Assembly: GCF_016863295.1 (NCBI RefSeq)
Contig: NZ_BOOP01000004.1
Coordinates: 372,001-436,000 of the forward strand
DNA: 64,000 nucleotides
Direction: 5' to 3'
Source of the DNA: Planotetraspora phitsanulokensis
GTDB taxonomy: Bacteria; Actinomycetota; Actinomycetes; Streptosporangiales; Streptosporangiaceae
Within the stretch, counting starts at the first letter, position 1, and each line of letters starts with the position of its first letter. Both the position numbers and the translations under genes were made by a program. The notes beneath the pieces are model-generated. The model was given only the letters and a program-made list of their open reading frames with translations. It ran no database searches and was not told where the DNA came from. Below are positions 1 to 47,692 of the stretch, in pieces.

Positions 1-446
1 CGACCGTCCAGGGCCTGGTGAAGGTCGCCTTCGCCGTCCAGGACCACGACACCGTGCTGCAGCGGCTCGCCGACGAGGTCAGCCCTCGCGTCCTGGCCGC
101 GCCGGCCCGCCTCGACGACGTGAGCCGCCAGCTGGAGGAGTACTTCGCAGGACGCCGGACGCGCTTCGACCTTCCGCTGGACTGGCGGCTGTCGAAGGGA
201 TTCCGGCGTGAGGTGCTGACGCACCTGCGCGACATCGGCTACGGCCGCACCGAGAGCTACGCCCAGGTCGCCGCCGCCGCGGGCAGCCCCCGCGCGGTCC
301 GCGCGGTGGGCACCGCCTGCGCCACCAACCCGCTCCCCGTCGTCGTGCCCTGCCACCGGGTGGTGCGCTCCGACGGCAGCCCGGGGGGCTACGCCGGCGG
401 CCCCGACGCCAAGCTGGCCCTGCTGGCGCTGGAGAGAGCAGCCTGA
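1..446 (+). CDS. ogt: Methylated-DNA--protein-cysteine S-methyltransferase (5' end outside window)
   Basis: Suicide DNA-repair protein that moves the alkyl group from O6-alkylguanine to its own cysteine. The C-terminal domain is complete: the acceptor motif VPCHRVV, preceded by AVGTACATNPLPVVV and followed by the glycine-rich GGYAGG turn. A GTG at 18 is open upstream with no stop, and the codons before it read TVQGLV, which fits the N-terminal domain of the family, so the gene begins before base 1. About 148 codons are visible against a usual 160-180. The protein ends at a TGA after ERAA. Family assignment is firm; I see only the 3' part of the gene and nothing of its promoter. Confidence 0.93.
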   Translation, partial: TVQGLVKVAFAVQDHDTVLQRLADEVSPRVLAAPARLDDVSRQLEEYFAGRRTRFDLPLDWRLSKGFRREVLTHLRDIGYGRTESYAQVAAAAGSPRAVRAVGTACATNPLPVVVPCHRVVRSDGSPGGYAGGPDAKLALLALERAA

Positions 447-4846: not shown

Positions 4847-5716
4847 ATGAACGTTCATCACCGTTACGCCACCGTGGAGGGGCGTCGGATTTTCTACCGC
4901 GAGGCCGGACCGGCGGACGCACCGGTGCTCGTCCTGCTGCACGGCTTTCCGACCAGCTCGTTCATGTTCCGCGGCCTCATCCCGGCCCTGGCGGACCGCT
5001 ACCACGTCATCGCCCCCGACTACCTGGGCTTCGGGCTGTCCGACGCGCCGTCCGCCGACGAGTTCGACTACACCTTCGACGCGCTCGCCGGATTGACCGA
5101 GGGCCTGCTGAGCCAGCTGGGGGTCTCCCGCTACGCCGTCTACGTCCAGGACTACGGCGCCCCCGTCGGATGGCGGCTCGCCCTGAACCGGCCTGACGCG
5201 ATCACGGCGATCATCACCCAGAACGGCAACGCCTACGAGGCGGGCTTCGTCCCGAGCTTCTGGGAGACCGTCTGGGCCTACCACCGGGAGCAGACGCCGG
5301 AAACCGAGGCGGCCATCAGCCAGGCCCTCACCCTCGATGCGATCAAGTGGCAGTACCTCACCGGCGTGCCGGACGAGACCGTCGTCAGCCCGGACACCTG
5401 GCATCACGACTTCGCTCTGGTCTCGCGGCCCGGCAACGACCGCGTACAACTAGCCCTTTTCCTCGATTACGCGACCAATCCCCCGCTCTACCCGCGCCTG
5501 CACGAATACCTCCGGGCGCGGCAGACACCTCTGCTCGCCGTCTGGGGCCAGGGCGACGAGATCTTCGGCCCAGCGGGCGCCCGGGCCTTCGCCGACGATC
5601 TGCCCGACGCCCGGATCCACCTCCTCGAGGGCGGTCACTTCCTCCTCGAGAGCGCCCTCGACGAGGTCGCCGCGCTGATCAGGGCATTTCTCGACGAGGT
5701 GCTCCCGCGCCGCTGA
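4847..5716 (+). CDS. Alpha/beta hydrolase, haloalkane dehalogenase / epoxide hydrolase type
   Basis: A 289-residue alpha/beta-fold hydrolase. The nucleophile elbow reads VQDYGAPVG (about residues 101-109), so the nucleophile is Asp and not Ser. That puts it with haloalkane dehalogenases and epoxide hydrolases, which form an alkyl-enzyme ester. The oxyanion motif is HGFPTSS, the acid region is near WGQGDEIFGP and the catalytic His is in LEGGHFLLES. I start at 4847 (MNVHHRYATVEGRRIFYREAG), where AAGGGGG lies 6 nt upstream. The 3' end overlaps the convergent DUF998 gene by 38 nt. Substrate is unknown; the divergent CGNR regulator is the obvious candidate controller. Confidence 0.88.
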   Translation: MNVHHRYATVEGRRIFYREAGPADAPVLVLLHGFPTSSFMFRGLIPALADRYHVIAPDYLGFGLSDAPSADEFDYTFDALAGLTEGLLSQLGVSRYAVYVQDYGAPVGWRLALNRPDAITAIITQNGNAYEAGFVPSFWETVWAYHREQTPETEAAISQALTLDAIKWQYLTGVPDETVVSPDTWHHDFALVSRPGNDRVQLALFLDYATNPPLYPRLHEYLRARQTPLLAVWGQGDEIFGPAGARAFADDLPDARIHLLEGGHFLLESALDEVAALIRAFLDEVLPRR

Positions 5717-6374
5717 CCCCTGCCTCGCGCATCAGCAGGGCCGCCACCGCGGTGGTCCAGGCGAAGGCGATCACGATCGCGACCGCCAGTCGCACGCTCA
5801 GCCCGTCCTGGCCCGGCCAGATGGAAAGGACGAGAGCGGTGCCTGCGGTCATCGCGCTGTAGGCCGCCCACCCCCGCCGTCCGAGCAGGGCGAACCGGCG
5901 GACGAACACGAAGCCGGCCGCCACCAGCGCCGTGAAGGCGACGGGGGGTGCGACGGCGTGCACCATGGCGTGCCAGCTCAGGTGATCGGGCATCCCGGAA
6001 GGCGCTCCAGGGGGAAAGCCGAGGGCGGGGTCCGTCACGAAGACCCCGCCCGCGACCAGCCCGATGCCGTAGACGCCGACCAGCGGCGGCGCCCACGTCC
6101 CGGCAGGCCCCGGGTGAAGCACGCGCCGCAGGCCGACGGCGAAGGCGAGGGAGAGCAGGCCGGCGACGACGAAGTCGGCCATCTGCACCCATCCCAGCGA
6201 TCCGAGGCTGAGCAGGCTGATCGGATGGCGGCTGAGGTCGAACCCGTCCCGGGTGAGCACCTGTGCCGCCACCACGCCGACGTACACGGGACCTGCGGCG
6301 ACGCCACAGGCCAGCAATGCGCGGGTCGTCCCGGACGCCTGGCTCCGGGCGGCGGCGTGCGCCTGCGTGGTCAT
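5679..6374 (-). CDS. DUF998 domain-containing membrane protein
   Basis: A 231-residue integral membrane protein with about six hydrophobic segments and the DUF998 hallmarks LSRHPISLLSLGSLGWVQM and MPDHLSWHAMVHAVAPPVAF. It is the last gene of an ArsR-SRPBCC-DUF998 unit: its ATG at 6374 overlaps the SRPBCC stop by 4 nt (ATGA), so translation is probably coupled. The biochemical role of DUF998 proteins is not established. Its 3' end runs 38 nt into the convergent hydrolase gene. Confidence 0.88.
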   Translation of the reverse strand: MTTQAHAAARSQASGTTRALLACGVAAGPVYVGVVAAQVLTRDGFDLSRHPISLLSLGSLGWVQMADFVVAGLLSLAFAVGLRRVLHPGPAGTWAPPLVGVYGIGLVAGGVFVTDPALGFPPGAPSGMPDHLSWHAMVHAVAPPVAFTALVAAGFVFVRRFALLGRRGWAAYSAMTAGTALVLSIWPGQDGLSVRLAVAIVIAFAWTTAVAALLMREAGVSGAGAPRREMP

Positions 6375-6928
6375 CGGCCGGCCTCCTGGACTCCGTCCGG
6401 TGTCACTGCGCCGTTCCCGGCGGCACTGCTCCCGGCGGCACTGTTTCCGGCGGCCTCGAGCAGCGCCCTGAGCTCGCCGAGCTGGGCGCTCCAGCCGCCG
6501 CCCGCGCCGGGGATCTCACCCCCGACCTGCGCGGCCACCCGGGGAGCGTCGGTGACATCGTGGATCACGGTCAGCTTCGTGACGCCGGACTCACCCGGCT
6601 CGATCTCGTAGGTCAGGCGGGTGACCGGCTCGGCCGACGTCTCCGCGTCCCAGACCGGGTGCCACGTCTGCACGAGCCGTCGCGGCGGATCCACCTCGAT
6701 GACCGTGCCCTCGACGGCCACGTCCGGCGACCCCATCGCCTTCATCTCGGCGCTGGCGAGCGCCTTGTACGTCCCGCCCGGACGCAGCTCGTACTCCACC
6801 GGCGTCCGATATCCGTACCTCTCGGCCCACTCGGGCCTGGTGATCGCCTCCCAGATCGCCTCGGGCGTGGCCCTGATCGACACCTGGTGAACCTGAACAG
6901 TGCGCGTGCCGTCCGTCGTACCGGCCAT
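6371..6928 (-). CDS. SRPBCC (AHSA1-like) protein
   Basis: A 185-residue START/Bet v1-like protein. Recognisable blocks are VSIRATPEAIWEAITRPEWAE at the N-terminus, GGTYKALASAEMKAMG, and the LTYEIEPGESGVTKLTVIHD strand pair of the AHSA1 type. The Ser/Ala-rich C-terminus (AAGNSAAGSSAAGNG) is probably disordered. I start at 6928 (MAGTTDG), 2 nt after the ArsR stop, with GGAGGAATAGCC as ribosome site. ArsR plus SRPBCC pairs are common in actinobacteria; the ArsR protein is assumed to control the pair. The ligand is unknown. Confidence 0.87.
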   Translation of the reverse strand: MAGTTDGTRTVQVHQVSIRATPEAIWEAITRPEWAERYGYRTPVEYELRPGGTYKALASAEMKAMGSPDVAVEGTVIEVDPPRRLVQTWHPVWDAETSAEPVTRLTYEIEPGESGVTKLTVIHDVTDAPRVAAQVGGEIPGAGGGWSAQLGELRALLEAAGNSAAGSSAAGNGAVTPDGVQEAGR

Positions 6929-6930
6929 GG

Positions 6931-7245
6931 CTATTCCTCCAGCTCGGCTTTGAGATCGGCGAGCGCCGACGCGTGACGCTCGGTGTACTTGTCGATCCAC
7001 CGGTCGTGAATGAGCCGGATCGGCACGGGATTGAGGAAGTGCAGCTTCTCCCGGCCGGACCGGCGCGTCACCACCAGGCCCGCCTCTTCGAGCACACGCA
7101 GGTGCTTCATGACACCGAAGCGGCTCATCTCCAGCTCGGACTCCAGCTCGGTGAGCGTACGGCCGTCACGCGCGAAGAGCAGGTCGAGCAGGAAACGCCG
7201 GGTCGGGTCCGCGAGCGCCTTGAACACGCGATCGTCATCGGGCAC
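6931..7245 (-). CDS. ArsR family winged-helix transcriptional regulator
   Basis: A 104-residue (or 111-residue) winged-helix repressor: VFKALADPTRRFLLDLLF opens the domain, LTELESELEMSRFGVMKHLRVLEEAGLV is the recognition helix-turn-helix, and VTRRSGREKLHFLNP is the wing. No clustered Cys metal site is visible, as in the subgroup paired with SRPBCC proteins. The start is decided by the promoter: TTGACA and TATTTT place the transcript start at the GTG at 7245, giving a leaderless mRNA; the ATG at 7266 lies inside the promoter spacer and has no ribosome site. It heads the ArsR-SRPBCC-DUF998 operon and is probably autoregulated through the palindrome in its promoter. Confidence 0.85.
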   Translation of the reverse strand: MPDDDRVFKALADPTRRFLLDLLFARDGRTLTELESELEMSRFGVMKHLRVLEEAGLVVTRRSGREKLHFLNPVPIRLIHDRWIDKYTERHASALADLKAELEE

Positions 7246-7251
7246 GGCCTC

Positions 7252-7281
7252 AAAATAGGTGACCATTTGGTCACATGTCAA
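7252..7281 (-). promoter_or_regulatory. ArsR operon promoter with operator in the spacer
   Basis: Reading leftward: TTGACA (7281-7276), an 18-bp spacer, TATTTT (7257-7252), then 6 nt and the GTG at 7245. The spacer holds GTGACCA-TT-TGGTCAC (7259-7274), a perfect 7-bp inverted repeat with a 2-bp centre, ideally placed for a dimeric ArsR repressor to occlude polymerase. Both hexamers match the sigma-70-like consensus well. Confidence 0.75.
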
Positions 7282-7303
7282 TCCTGCCAGAGGCTCCCCC
7301 CGC

Positions 7304-7568
7304 GTGATCATGCACAGGCTCGCGCACAGGCATCCCGACCTGCCCCAACCTTGAGGGTGATCATGCACGAGTTCGTGATCAATACGCCTGACCAGCACAA
7401 ACTTCACCCATGATCATGCACGGATTCGTGGATTGCGTACATGACCAGCGCGAACTCAGTCCGTGATCATGCACACAATCCGATGCACATCCCCCGACCT
7501 GGACCGACAACATTCGTGATCATGCAAGCGCCGAACGCTCAACCGGGTGCCGGCGAGAACCCATGACT
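7304..7568 (+). repeat. Tandem array with exact 53-bp period
   Basis: The 12-bp core GTGATCATGCAC begins at 7304, 7357, 7410, 7463 and 7516, a spacing of exactly 53 bp each time. The third copy begins with A and the fifth ends AAG in place of CAC-like sequence. The 41 bp between cores are mostly different but keep islands at fixed phase: TTCG about 4 bp after the core in copies 2-3, and GACC(T/A)G near offset 34 in copies 1-4. The block fills the gap between the ArsR promoter and the end of the Gfo/Idh gene and has no credible gene. The 53-bp period equals five helical turns at 10.6 bp, so the cores would lie on one face of the DNA. Confidence 0.85.
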
Positions 7569-7584
7569 ACGGCGACCCCCTGCC

Positions 7585-7720
7585 GTACATGATCACGTAC
7601 AGCATTTCCCCTGATCACCACAGCACCGCCCGAACGTATGCATGGTCACGGGCGATGCTGGTGCTGGTCACGTGGGCAATTCGCGAATCCGCGCCTGATC
7701 ACGAACTCGTGCATGATCAC
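7585..7720 (-). repeat. Inverted copies of the 53-bp repeat core
   Basis: On the minus strand the same core recurs in degenerate form at 7596-7585 (GTGATCATGTAC), 7618-7611 (GTGATCAG) and 7649-7638 (GTGACCATGCAT), and in full at 7720-7697. The last is a 24-bp perfect inverted match to 7357-7380. These copies are not evenly spaced. The TGA stop of the Gfo/Idh gene (7717-7719) lies inside the terminal copy. The arrangement is head-to-head with the 53-bp array. Confidence 0.75.
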
Positions 7721-8808
7721 GCCGAAGCGGATTCTCCTTCGGCGGGGAGGCCCTGCTGGTCGAGCAGCCTGGTCACGGCCTGCTGGGCGGTCACGATGTC
7801 CTCCAACGCCCCCGGCACTCCCGTGAGAGGCGGTACGCCGGAGGTCGCCATCGCGTGGAAGGCCACGAGTTCCCGTTCGAAGGACGGGGTCACGTCGCTG
7901 AAGGCCAGCCGTCCATCGGCGCTCACGTCGGTGAGGCCGGTCGCCGCGCCCAGCAGGTAGGGCGTGGCGAAGACCACCTCGAACGTGCCGGTGGCGTGGT
8001 GCACGGCCACGGTCTCCCGGTAGCCGGGATAGTCCTCGAGGAAGTGCCAGTGGATGGCGTAACGCCCACCGGCGCGCAGCGCACCCGACATCTCGACCGA
8101 GCGCCCGCCCACTCCCGGCCAGGTCGTCACGTGGTCGACTCCGGCCGGTCCGCCCGCGAGCAGGCGGAGCAGCGACAGGTCGTGGCAGATGCTGTTGAGA
8201 ATGGTCATGTAGAGCCCGCGCGCCTCGGGCGTGGCCTCGCCGATGGCGGCGCGGACCAGTTCGTCCTCCTGCGCGCGCAACCTGGCGACCACCTCGGCGG
8301 GCACGTCGCCGGGCGGCTCGGGAAGCCGGGCGAACGCGAGCTGCGCCTGGTCGCTCGGGTGCAGGACGGTCACCTGGACGGCGCGCACGTCGGCCTGCCG
8401 TCCGGCCACCCGCTGGACGGCGGGGTCGTACTGCTTCATGTATCCGACCATCAGCCGGGGCCGGTCGGGATCCTCCAGCGCCGCGATCTCGGCCGCCTCG
8501 GCGCGGGTGTAGGCGAGTGGCTTCTCGCACAGTACGGCGTAGCCCCTGCTGAGCGCGTCGACGACCACCCGCCCGTGCGAGCCCGACGTCAGCACGAGCA
8601 CGGCGTCGAAGCCGCCCGCGTCGAGCATCTCCGTCACGTCGGTGTAGCGCCCTGCCGCGCCGTACCGGTCGGCGAGGCGTCCGGTCAGCGAGGCCGACAG
8701 GTCGCACAGGGCGACCACCTCGAACAGGTCGCCCCGCCGCTCCAGCAGAGGCAGGTGCACCGTCTGCGCGATGACGCCGAGCCCGGCCACCGCGACCTTG
8801 AGCCTCAC
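7717..8808 (-). CDS. Gfo/Idh/MocA family oxidoreductase
   Basis: A 363-residue NAD(P)-dependent sugar or inositol dehydrogenase-type protein. The N-terminal Rossmann motif is VAVAGLGVIAQTVHLPLL, and the family's catalytic-lysine motif CEKPLAYTRAEA is present (about residues 93-104). The C-terminal alpha/beta domain includes YMTILNSICHDLSLLRLLAG, where the His of the active site is expected. It starts at a GTG (8808) that overlaps the stop of the TIM-barrel gene by 4 nt (GTGA), so translation is coupled. As the last gene of the leftward sugar operon it probably oxidises a sugar or polyol released by the upstream glycosidases; the exact substrate is not readable. Confidence 0.9.
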   Translation of the reverse strand: MRLKVAVAGLGVIAQTVHLPLLERRGDLFEVVALCDLSASLTGRLADRYGAAGRYTDVTEMLDAGGFDAVLVLTSGSHGRVVVDALSRGYAVLCEKPLAYTRAEAAEIAALEDPDRPRLMVGYMKQYDPAVQRVAGRQADVRAVQVTVLHPSDQAQLAFARLPEPPGDVPAEVVARLRAQEDELVRAAIGEATPEARGLYMTILNSICHDLSLLRLLAGGPAGVDHVTTWPGVGGRSVEMSGALRAGGRYAIHWHFLEDYPGYRETVAVHHATGTFEVVFATPYLLGAATGLTDVSADGRLAFSDVTPSFERELVAFHAMATSGVPPLTGVPGALEDIVTAQQAVTRLLDQQGLPAEGESASA

Positions 8809-47616: not shown

Positions 47617-47630
47617 GCCCTCACGAACCC

Positions 47631-47684
47631 TTCGCTCCCTTCGCTCCCTTCGCTCCCTTCGCTCCCTTCGCTCCCTTCGCTCCC
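47631..47684 (+). repeat. Six tandem copies of a 9-bp unit
   Basis: TTCGCTCCC is repeated six times without a mismatch, 15 nt after the TetR stop. A perfect simple array like this is likely to vary in copy number between strains. It has no coding role that I can support. Confidence 0.9.
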
Positions 47685-47692
47685 TAGGCTTC

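Follow-up and report, generated by a model that had tools for sequence, protein, structure and literature searches.

Converging arrays of a 12-bp core at 53-bp spacing in Planotetraspora: possible polar recognition sites at gene boundaries

The window, a 64,000-nucleotide stretch of Planotetraspora phitsanulokensis DNA (contig NZ_BOOP01000004.1, positions 372,001 to 436,000), contains an intergenic array of short cores organized in two arms that face each other. The genes and features of the locus are as follows.

4925 to 5716, plus strand: alpha/beta hydrolase gene
5679 to 7266, minus strand: DUF998, AHSA1 and ArsR genes, between the hydrolase gene and the plus arm
7304 to 7527, plus strand: plus arm, five cores at a 53-bp step, comprising four full units and a terminal core
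7304 to 7315, plus strand: core 1, exact GTGATCATGCAC, outermost in the plus arm
7337 to 7342, plus strand: second conserved motif of unit 1, GACCTG
7357 to 7368, plus strand: core 2, exact
7410 to 7421, plus strand: core 3, one mismatch
7463 to 7474, plus strand: core 4, exact
7516 to 7527, plus strand: core 5, one mismatch, the inner terminal core, after which the rest of the unit is absent
7528 to 7584, no strand: centre separating the two arms
7585 to 7720, minus strand: minus arm, with cores at 7585, 7638 and 7691 at a 53-bp step and an exact core at 7709, 18 bp outside 7691
7717 to 8808, minus strand: Gfo/Idh/MocA oxidoreductase gene (PF01408)

The original prediction described five recurrences of one core, always 53 bp apart. 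Both the places and the step are confirmed, but the five are not identical: the cores at 7410 and 7516 each depart from the other three by one mismatch. The extent given for the array, 7304-7568, proved too short; the description also overlooked a facing arm, a further motif within the units and the convergence of arms as a rule. Minus-strand cores lie past 7568 at 7585 (one mismatch), 7638 and 7691 (two each), and 7709 (none), and the stop codon of the Gfo/Idh gene sits within the last, outermost of these. The second motif recurs at the same offset in units 2, 3 and 4 as GACCAG, GACCAG and GACCTG. With up to two mismatches allowed, the window holds 14 core matches where 4.5 would be expected, a count attained in 0 of 100 shuffles. 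Elsewhere the window carries two tandem repeats of other kinds, a perfect one at 47628-47685 (9-bp unit CCCTTCGCT, 6.4 copies) and one at 1583-1729 (42-bp unit, 3.6 copies, 75% matches).

We compared this genome (G000) with P. thailandica (G001), P. kaengkrachanensis (G002), P. mira (G003), P. silvatica (G004), and Planotetraspora sp. A-T 1434 (G085), which the genome search places as a separate genus. In G002, G003 and G004 an array likewise adjoins the Gfo/Idh gene, and its other flank is the hydrolase orthologue (tblastn identity 96, 91 and 90%, respectively). At up to one mismatch, this locus has six plus and five minus cores in G002, four and five in G003, four and four in G004, and five and two in the window. 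No gene was called at the place of the DUF998-AHSA1-ArsR interval in G002, G003 or G004; in the window these three genes intervene after the hydrolase gene, and the plus arm therefore faces the ArsR start. A G004 stretch (C31) is 78% identical to window positions 7001-7282, the ArsR gene. In the piece of P. thailandica examined, neither array nor hydrolase lies beside the Gfo/Idh gene.

The exact 12-mer occurs 231 times in this assembly, 133 forward and 98 reverse, whereas the reversed-pattern control gives 0. The search that had been suggested for the core, 41 arbitrary bases and the core again returned 160 pairs here at up to two mismatches and 675, 589, 665 and 680 pairs in G001 to G004, respectively, so relatives within the genus keep both the core and its spacing. 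The remaining 55 of the 60 genomes in this search contained 0 such pairs. Among named genomes, the exact core pair occurs in at least 111 stretches, and all matches listed are from Planotetraspora. A wider pattern of tandem sites, with GTGATCWTGY-N6-TC ahead of a second GTGATCWTGY, is present in 16 of 297 genomes of the family Streptosporangiaceae and 7 of its 68 genera, three of the 16 genomes having just one to five matches. Class-wide, it is present in 5 of 394 genomes: G000, G143 of the same family, G327, and two genomes with a single match each. One of the options originally offered, an actinobacterial intergenic repeat family, is what the arrays are, confined in the searches made to one family. 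In G327, from another family of the class, the match at C9:47885-48136 is a satellite with a 22-bp unit that includes GTGATCATGC-N6-TC, and it looks unrelated. Genus g55 has 43 wide-pattern tandem matches in G060 and 180 in G109. A search of RNA families gave one sub-threshold match, elsewhere.

Anatomy and orientation were analysed in 177 arrays of at least two units, taken from 21 loci of G000, the window among them, from 400 kb of G002 and 382 kb of G003, and from 111 pieces of contigs chosen for an exact core pair at 53 bp. Units were called with a motif profile (score of at least 14) and clustered at 350 bp, and orthologous arrays were counted apart in each species. In the 672 units with a core after them, GTGATCATGC is near-invariant, TTC at +15..17 is 92-100% conserved, and (C/T)GACC(T/A)G(C/G) at +32..39 and a C ahead of each core are also kept; positions +19..30 form the variable stretch. 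The 41 bp between cores, originally taken to be free, are so in their variable parts, which have diverged by 41-43% between species, but not at the TTC and the GACC motif. In the 210 units without a following core, the core is retained and the remainder mostly is not. The strongest covariation in the 672 units joins neighbouring positions, and long-range pairs are absent from the top of the list. A possible stem within the unit shows neither covariation nor excess pairing (0.711 vs. 0.715 in shuffled sequence; 667 units), and an RNA hairpin inside each unit was rejected on these grounds.

Exactly 53 bp separates same-arm neighbours in 46 of 54 and 52 of 55 steps of two stretches taken without regard to arrays; the exceptions in the G002 stretch include six partial repeats of 30-31 bp. 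In the full set, 53 bp accounts for 495 of 549 steps, 52 bp for 25, and 54 bp for five, a tally biased towards 53 because pieces were chosen for a 53-bp pair. Other steps that would keep helical phase are nearly missing (one of 42 bp and two of 62 bp among the 549). Phasing along one face of the helix, as first proposed, is plausible, and the 41-bp period of another genus, g72, comes to about four turns, but the near absence of 42-43 and 63-64 bp steps indicates that the exact distance, and not phase alone, is held.

Plus units precede minus units in all 177 arrays, of which 87 are two-armed and 90 one-armed, some of the latter cut by the end of a sequence piece. The unselected stretches give the same order in 11 of 11 two-armed arrays. 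Looser clustering brings in few minus-plus neighbours, all of them weak matches or 444-481 bp apart. The distance between arms at the centre has a weak 53-bp coherence of 0.28 (n = 87, orthologs counted apart). An origin of the arms as a mirror-image duplication was rejected, since mirror units are no more alike (0.365) than other units of opposite arms (0.367).

Arrays stay in place as species diverge. P. kaengkrachanensis and P. mira have 291 gene gaps in common. Arrays occupy 12 of these in both species and one in each species alone, the two one-sided arrays being weak single hits. The comparison against G000 covers 249 gaps, with 10 arrays common and two and one on one side. For G085, which is further removed within Planotetraspora, a comparison across 147 genes gave four with arrays in common, five and four with arrays on one side alone, and 134 with none; dropping one self-match and one repeat leaves two places in common. 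Unit number, in turn, changes mainly by whole units: one gap holds three plus and seven minus units in G002, five and five in G003, and one and one in this genome.

Within these conserved places, the units diverge unevenly. Between G002 and G003 the mismatch is 0.7% at core positions 0-9, 10-11% at 15-18, 22% at 32-39, and 41-43% elsewhere, alike in both directions (43 units aligned from G002 to G003 and 44 in reverse, with 6 and 10 skipped for gaps), although aligning the units of one species to the sequence of the other itself favours core matches. An earlier count on 26 pairs, for which units had been preselected in the two species alike, put the core at 0.8% and the spacer at 32-34%. Control intergenic DNA (107 gaps) has diverged by only 13%, with 0.074 gaps per substitution; at 32% divergence this ratio predicts about 1.25 indels per unit and, as a rough estimate, some 29% of 53-bp units free of indels. 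The suggestion of selection on core and spacing thus holds up, the core differing at 0.7% and the spacers at 41-43% while steps of 53 bp prevail in the unselected stretches. The reason first offered for it, that decaying tandem duplications drop period and core jointly, is a weak argument. At variable positions, tandem neighbours have a likeness of 0.427, compared with 0.338 for units of different arrays. Some neighbours are recent exact duplicates, yet neighbours are in general just slightly more alike, and copying therefore does not homogenise whole units.

P. thailandica has a dialect of its own. Specifically, position 11 is G in 23 of its 26 distinct sites and C in 64 of 72, 50 of 55, 62 of 65, and 20 of 21 sites of four other species; its sites read mostly GTGATCATGCAGAAGTTC, and those of its sisters mostly GTGATCATGCACAGGTTC or near variants. 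Three P. thailandica gaps were set against P. mira: one lacks clean synteny, one has an arm reversed, and one matches, its three-core arm agreeing with the P. mira counterpart in core number, direction and position.

Gene context was read for 158 of the 177 arrays, leaving out four that overlap a gene call and 15 without a gene on one side; genes were called with a simple GC-frame script rather than a standard gene finder. Two-armed arrays lie between gene pairs of direction ++ (21), +- (31), -+ (9) and -- (14), and the plus-minus order of the arms is independent of gene direction. Arm ends point towards the 3' end of a gene in 97 of 150 cases for two-armed arrays and 55 of 83 for single arms, at median distances of 17 and 12 bp, respectively. 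Arrays favour convergent gaps: 61 of 158 lie in one, compared with 31 of 177 gene gaps of at least 100 bp in G002 and 20 of 163 in G003. Because 53 of the 150 arm ends point towards a gene start and 9 of the 75 two-armed arrays lie between divergent genes, a role in termination is not general.

Related arrays exist in other genera. G085 has like arrays in which 52-bp steps are also frequent. Genus g86 has 53-bp arrays in four species; of its 15 genomes, G209, G238, G143 and G216 have many tandem matches, G222 has one, and the remaining 10 have none. In its genome G209, most arrays among those listed start with GTGATCTTGTAGTTTGTCGCA, a 21-bp unit. In three G209 loci (L226, L232, L238) the outermost unit of both arms is near-identical over these 21 bp and the units further in differ, as though arm ends served a purpose of their own. 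In genus g72 (G077), the period is 41 bp in 86 of 100 steps listed, with 42 bp in six, 43 in five, 40 in two, and 53 in one, by hand count. The second motif there is CGCAGGTCAG, the reverse complement of CTGACCTGCG; it is inverted in 7 of 10 units and forward in 0 of 10, and the lone 53-bp unit of the genus has the GACC form.

The data show how the units are built and how the arms are oriented, that core and spacing are conserved, that the places are stable, and that copy number changes mainly by whole units. To explain this, we tentatively favor, as a good possibility that stops short of being probable, selected polar recognition arrays that a putative protein would bind as double-stranded DNA and that may mark transcription boundaries. 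In such a scheme, a unit would be an asymmetric signal, GTGATCATGC-N6-TC plus (C/T)GACCTG(C/G), repeated about every five helical turns; arms would converge or stand alone, those at gene ends beginning a median of 12-17 bp after the stop codon. The motif and the period would likely be preserved by a sequence-specific factor, most probably a protein that reads double-stranded DNA and touches its neighbours at a set distance. The presence of one motif at hundreds of places, its asymmetry, the covariation between neighbouring positions, the fixed spacing and the flip of the second motif together with the period all fit such a trans-acting factor. Tandem duplication may supply new units, which would account for the recent near-identical neighbours. 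With less certainty, convergent bound arms could form a two-sided boundary that halts transcription from the flanking genes, a step suggested by the position behind stop codons and by a single g86 gap discussed below. Polar, repeated sites that end transcription or replication units are familiar from Ter/Tus and from the Sal boxes of TTF-I, and by description the arrays resemble these in being polar, repeated and located at unit ends. No system of this kind is known to us whose sites recur at exactly 53 bp in hundreds of places.

A rather unlikely but serious alternative is that the arrays act as RNA, as terminators or 3'-end elements. The notion is that the transcribed arms form one long hairpin, or that each unit acts in the 3' UTR, with the simple palindromes of other genera as the ancestral form. 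As RNA, the window array forms a strong fold (z -6.8), and where an array start faces a gene 3' end, it lies a median of 12-17 bp away. Genera g69 and g71 have mainly single palindromes with the same ends as the core. In G114 (g69), 33 distinct 39-bp palindromes with GTGATCATGC ends show base-pair covariation, pairing at 0.79 against 0.70 in shuffled sets, where the highest of 500 values was 0.754. Five genomes have 75 palindromes in all; of 17 palindrome loci taken from them, 13 are no farther than 30 bp from a stop codon. In g71 (L241 of G076; G115), palindromes occur in both plus-minus and minus-plus order, unlike in the array genera. At one g86 gap, two species (G209, G238) have an array where 9 of 12 readable relatives have, by eye, a clean GC-rich hairpin; two of the 12, G143 and G216, carry arrays at other places. 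The array centre reaches -45 and -42 kcal/mol in these two species, a fold no weaker than the range of -36 to -51 found for the best windows of relatives lacking an array there, which speaks for an RNA element.

Against this reading, 90 of the 177 arrays are one-armed, allowing for those cut by a piece end, and an array's own arms pair scarcely better than swapped arms (mean z -0.3 and -0.4; 75 arrays). The outer flanks lack complementarity (0.436 vs. 0.425), and mirror-image units and positions within units behave as described above, with no sign of pairing. Complementarity kept by compensatory change was seen in the simple palindromes of G114 and not in Planotetraspora arrays. Furthermore, pairing alone does not demand the same 10 bases at hundreds of loci. 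The favoured boundary reading, for its part, gains no clear backing from a replacement of hairpins by arrays in Planotetraspora, an initial sign of which was due to masking: masked sequence gives -17.0 for arrays and -13.3 for like-masked controls (P = 0.03; 14 arrays, orthologs apart; 93 controls), and unmasked arrays are slightly weaker than controls, at -24.4 and -28.7 (P = 0.025; 14 arrays, 93 controls).

It is also quite unlikely, in our judgment, that the arrays are selfish or neutral repeats without host function, kept alike by gene conversion, by tandem duplication or as a non-autonomous transposon with inward repeats. The patchy distribution in the family and in 4 of 15 g86 species would suit such an element, as would the recent exact duplicates, the P. 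thailandica dialect, the spacers that outpace control intergenic DNA in divergence, and the 21-bp unit that starts most of the listed G209 arrays in the manner of a terminal inverted repeat. However, array places are common to different species, and in the few gaps inspected by eye neither a clean empty site nor a target duplication was seen. Whole units are not homogenised, and conversion limited to 12-bp cores is implausible. Finally, the exact core pair was unmatched in viral contigs, and the window array was unmatched in plasmids and phages.

REP sequences are imperfect palindromes that alternate in BIMEs and are tied to the transposase RAYT; they are extragenic and inverted, exceed 100 copies, and have proposed roles in protein binding and termination, according to the available part of PMC2817692. 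The arrays are like them in abundance, extragenic place, frequency near gene 3' ends and inverted arrangement, and differ from that partial description in their asymmetric units and plus-then-minus rather than alternating order. Mobilization by a REP-associated tyrosine transposase is very improbable, and as to PF01797 largely refuted. Specifically, Y1_Tnp (PF01797) is found in the array carriers G001 and G143, but it was unmatched in seven of the nine carriers searched (G000, G002, G003, G004, G085, G209 and G077), on which ground a RAYT-driven REP was rejected, and it occurs in the array-less G091 and G122. Among palindrome carriers, it is absent from G115, G076 and G074 and present in G114. 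Moreover, Planotetraspora units lack a covarying palindrome.

MIRUs are alike over whole units, run in direct orientation and contain coding frames, and many MIRU units are reportedly 53 bp long. A coding repeat of this kind, with a frame of 18 codons that opens at GTG and closes at an overlapping TGA (53 being 2 modulo 3), is hardly credible here: frame 0 has stops in 59 of 667 units against 86 column-shuffled (z -3.5), but the shuffle ignores neighbour preferences, so this value is no evidence of coding, and short-peptide coding was rejected because two minus-strand frames are similarly or more stop-poor (142 vs. 173 and 40 vs. 101) and codon position 2, not 3, is the most variable. By description, from a source available in part, the arrays resemble the MIRUs of Mycobacterium tuberculosis in size class, dispersal and variable copy number, those being dispersed tandem repeats of 46-101 bp at 41 loci, some copy-variable (PMC3914561). 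They differ in having many more loci, in keeping mainly motifs, and in the convergence of their arms.

No description of this repeat was found in the literature, as represented by open-licence PMC papers (titles, abstract starts and some texts). CRISPR arrays have identical repeats of about 23-50 bp, unrelated spacers and adjoining cas genes; a CRISPR array was rejected here in view of the 12-19 bp motif, the spacers with a common second motif, the convergent arms and the many dispersed loci. The nearest in layout are the STAR elements of Staphylococcus aureus, which have a 14-bp core, T(G/A/T)TGTTG(G/T)GGCCC(C/A), spacers no shorter than 40 bp, tandem copies lying between genes and unit-wise copy change, and whose function is given as unknown in the available part of that paper (PMC3532100). 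The likeness lies in the 12-bp core and 41-bp spacer, the mostly intergenic tandem copies and the change of copy number by unit. The core itself differs, being GTGATCATGCAC here. STAR repeats are direct, and convergent arms are not described for them in that portion of PMC3532100, whereas the present arms converge. By the same partial account, STAR spacers within a locus are often identical and the loci are not common to different species; here, spacers have diverged around a conserved second motif and 12 gaps are common against one and one.

Returning to recognition of double-stranded DNA by a protein, we speculate on a fuller form of this reading, which taken as a whole is unlikely. Specifically, some Streptosporangiaceae may possess a putative, undescribed DNA-binding protein that occupies polar sites at whole helical turns, five in Planotetraspora and four in the other genus. 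At a few hundred gene boundaries it would assemble into a pair of short filaments that run towards each other, and these would serve as orientation-dependent insulators or transcription stops effective from both sides. In single species, for example P. thailandica, the specificity of the protein would have changed together with its sites.

If a factor does read the arrays, they would represent a bacterial genome-wide boundary system of evenly spaced polar sites whose places were kept as species diverged. The arrays offer a natural test bed: loci of one to ten units, with one or two arms, periods of 41 and 53 bp, and one species dialect. Their study could also help explain why the intergenic gaps of some bacteria are filled with repeats of a core-and-spacer design, STAR among them.
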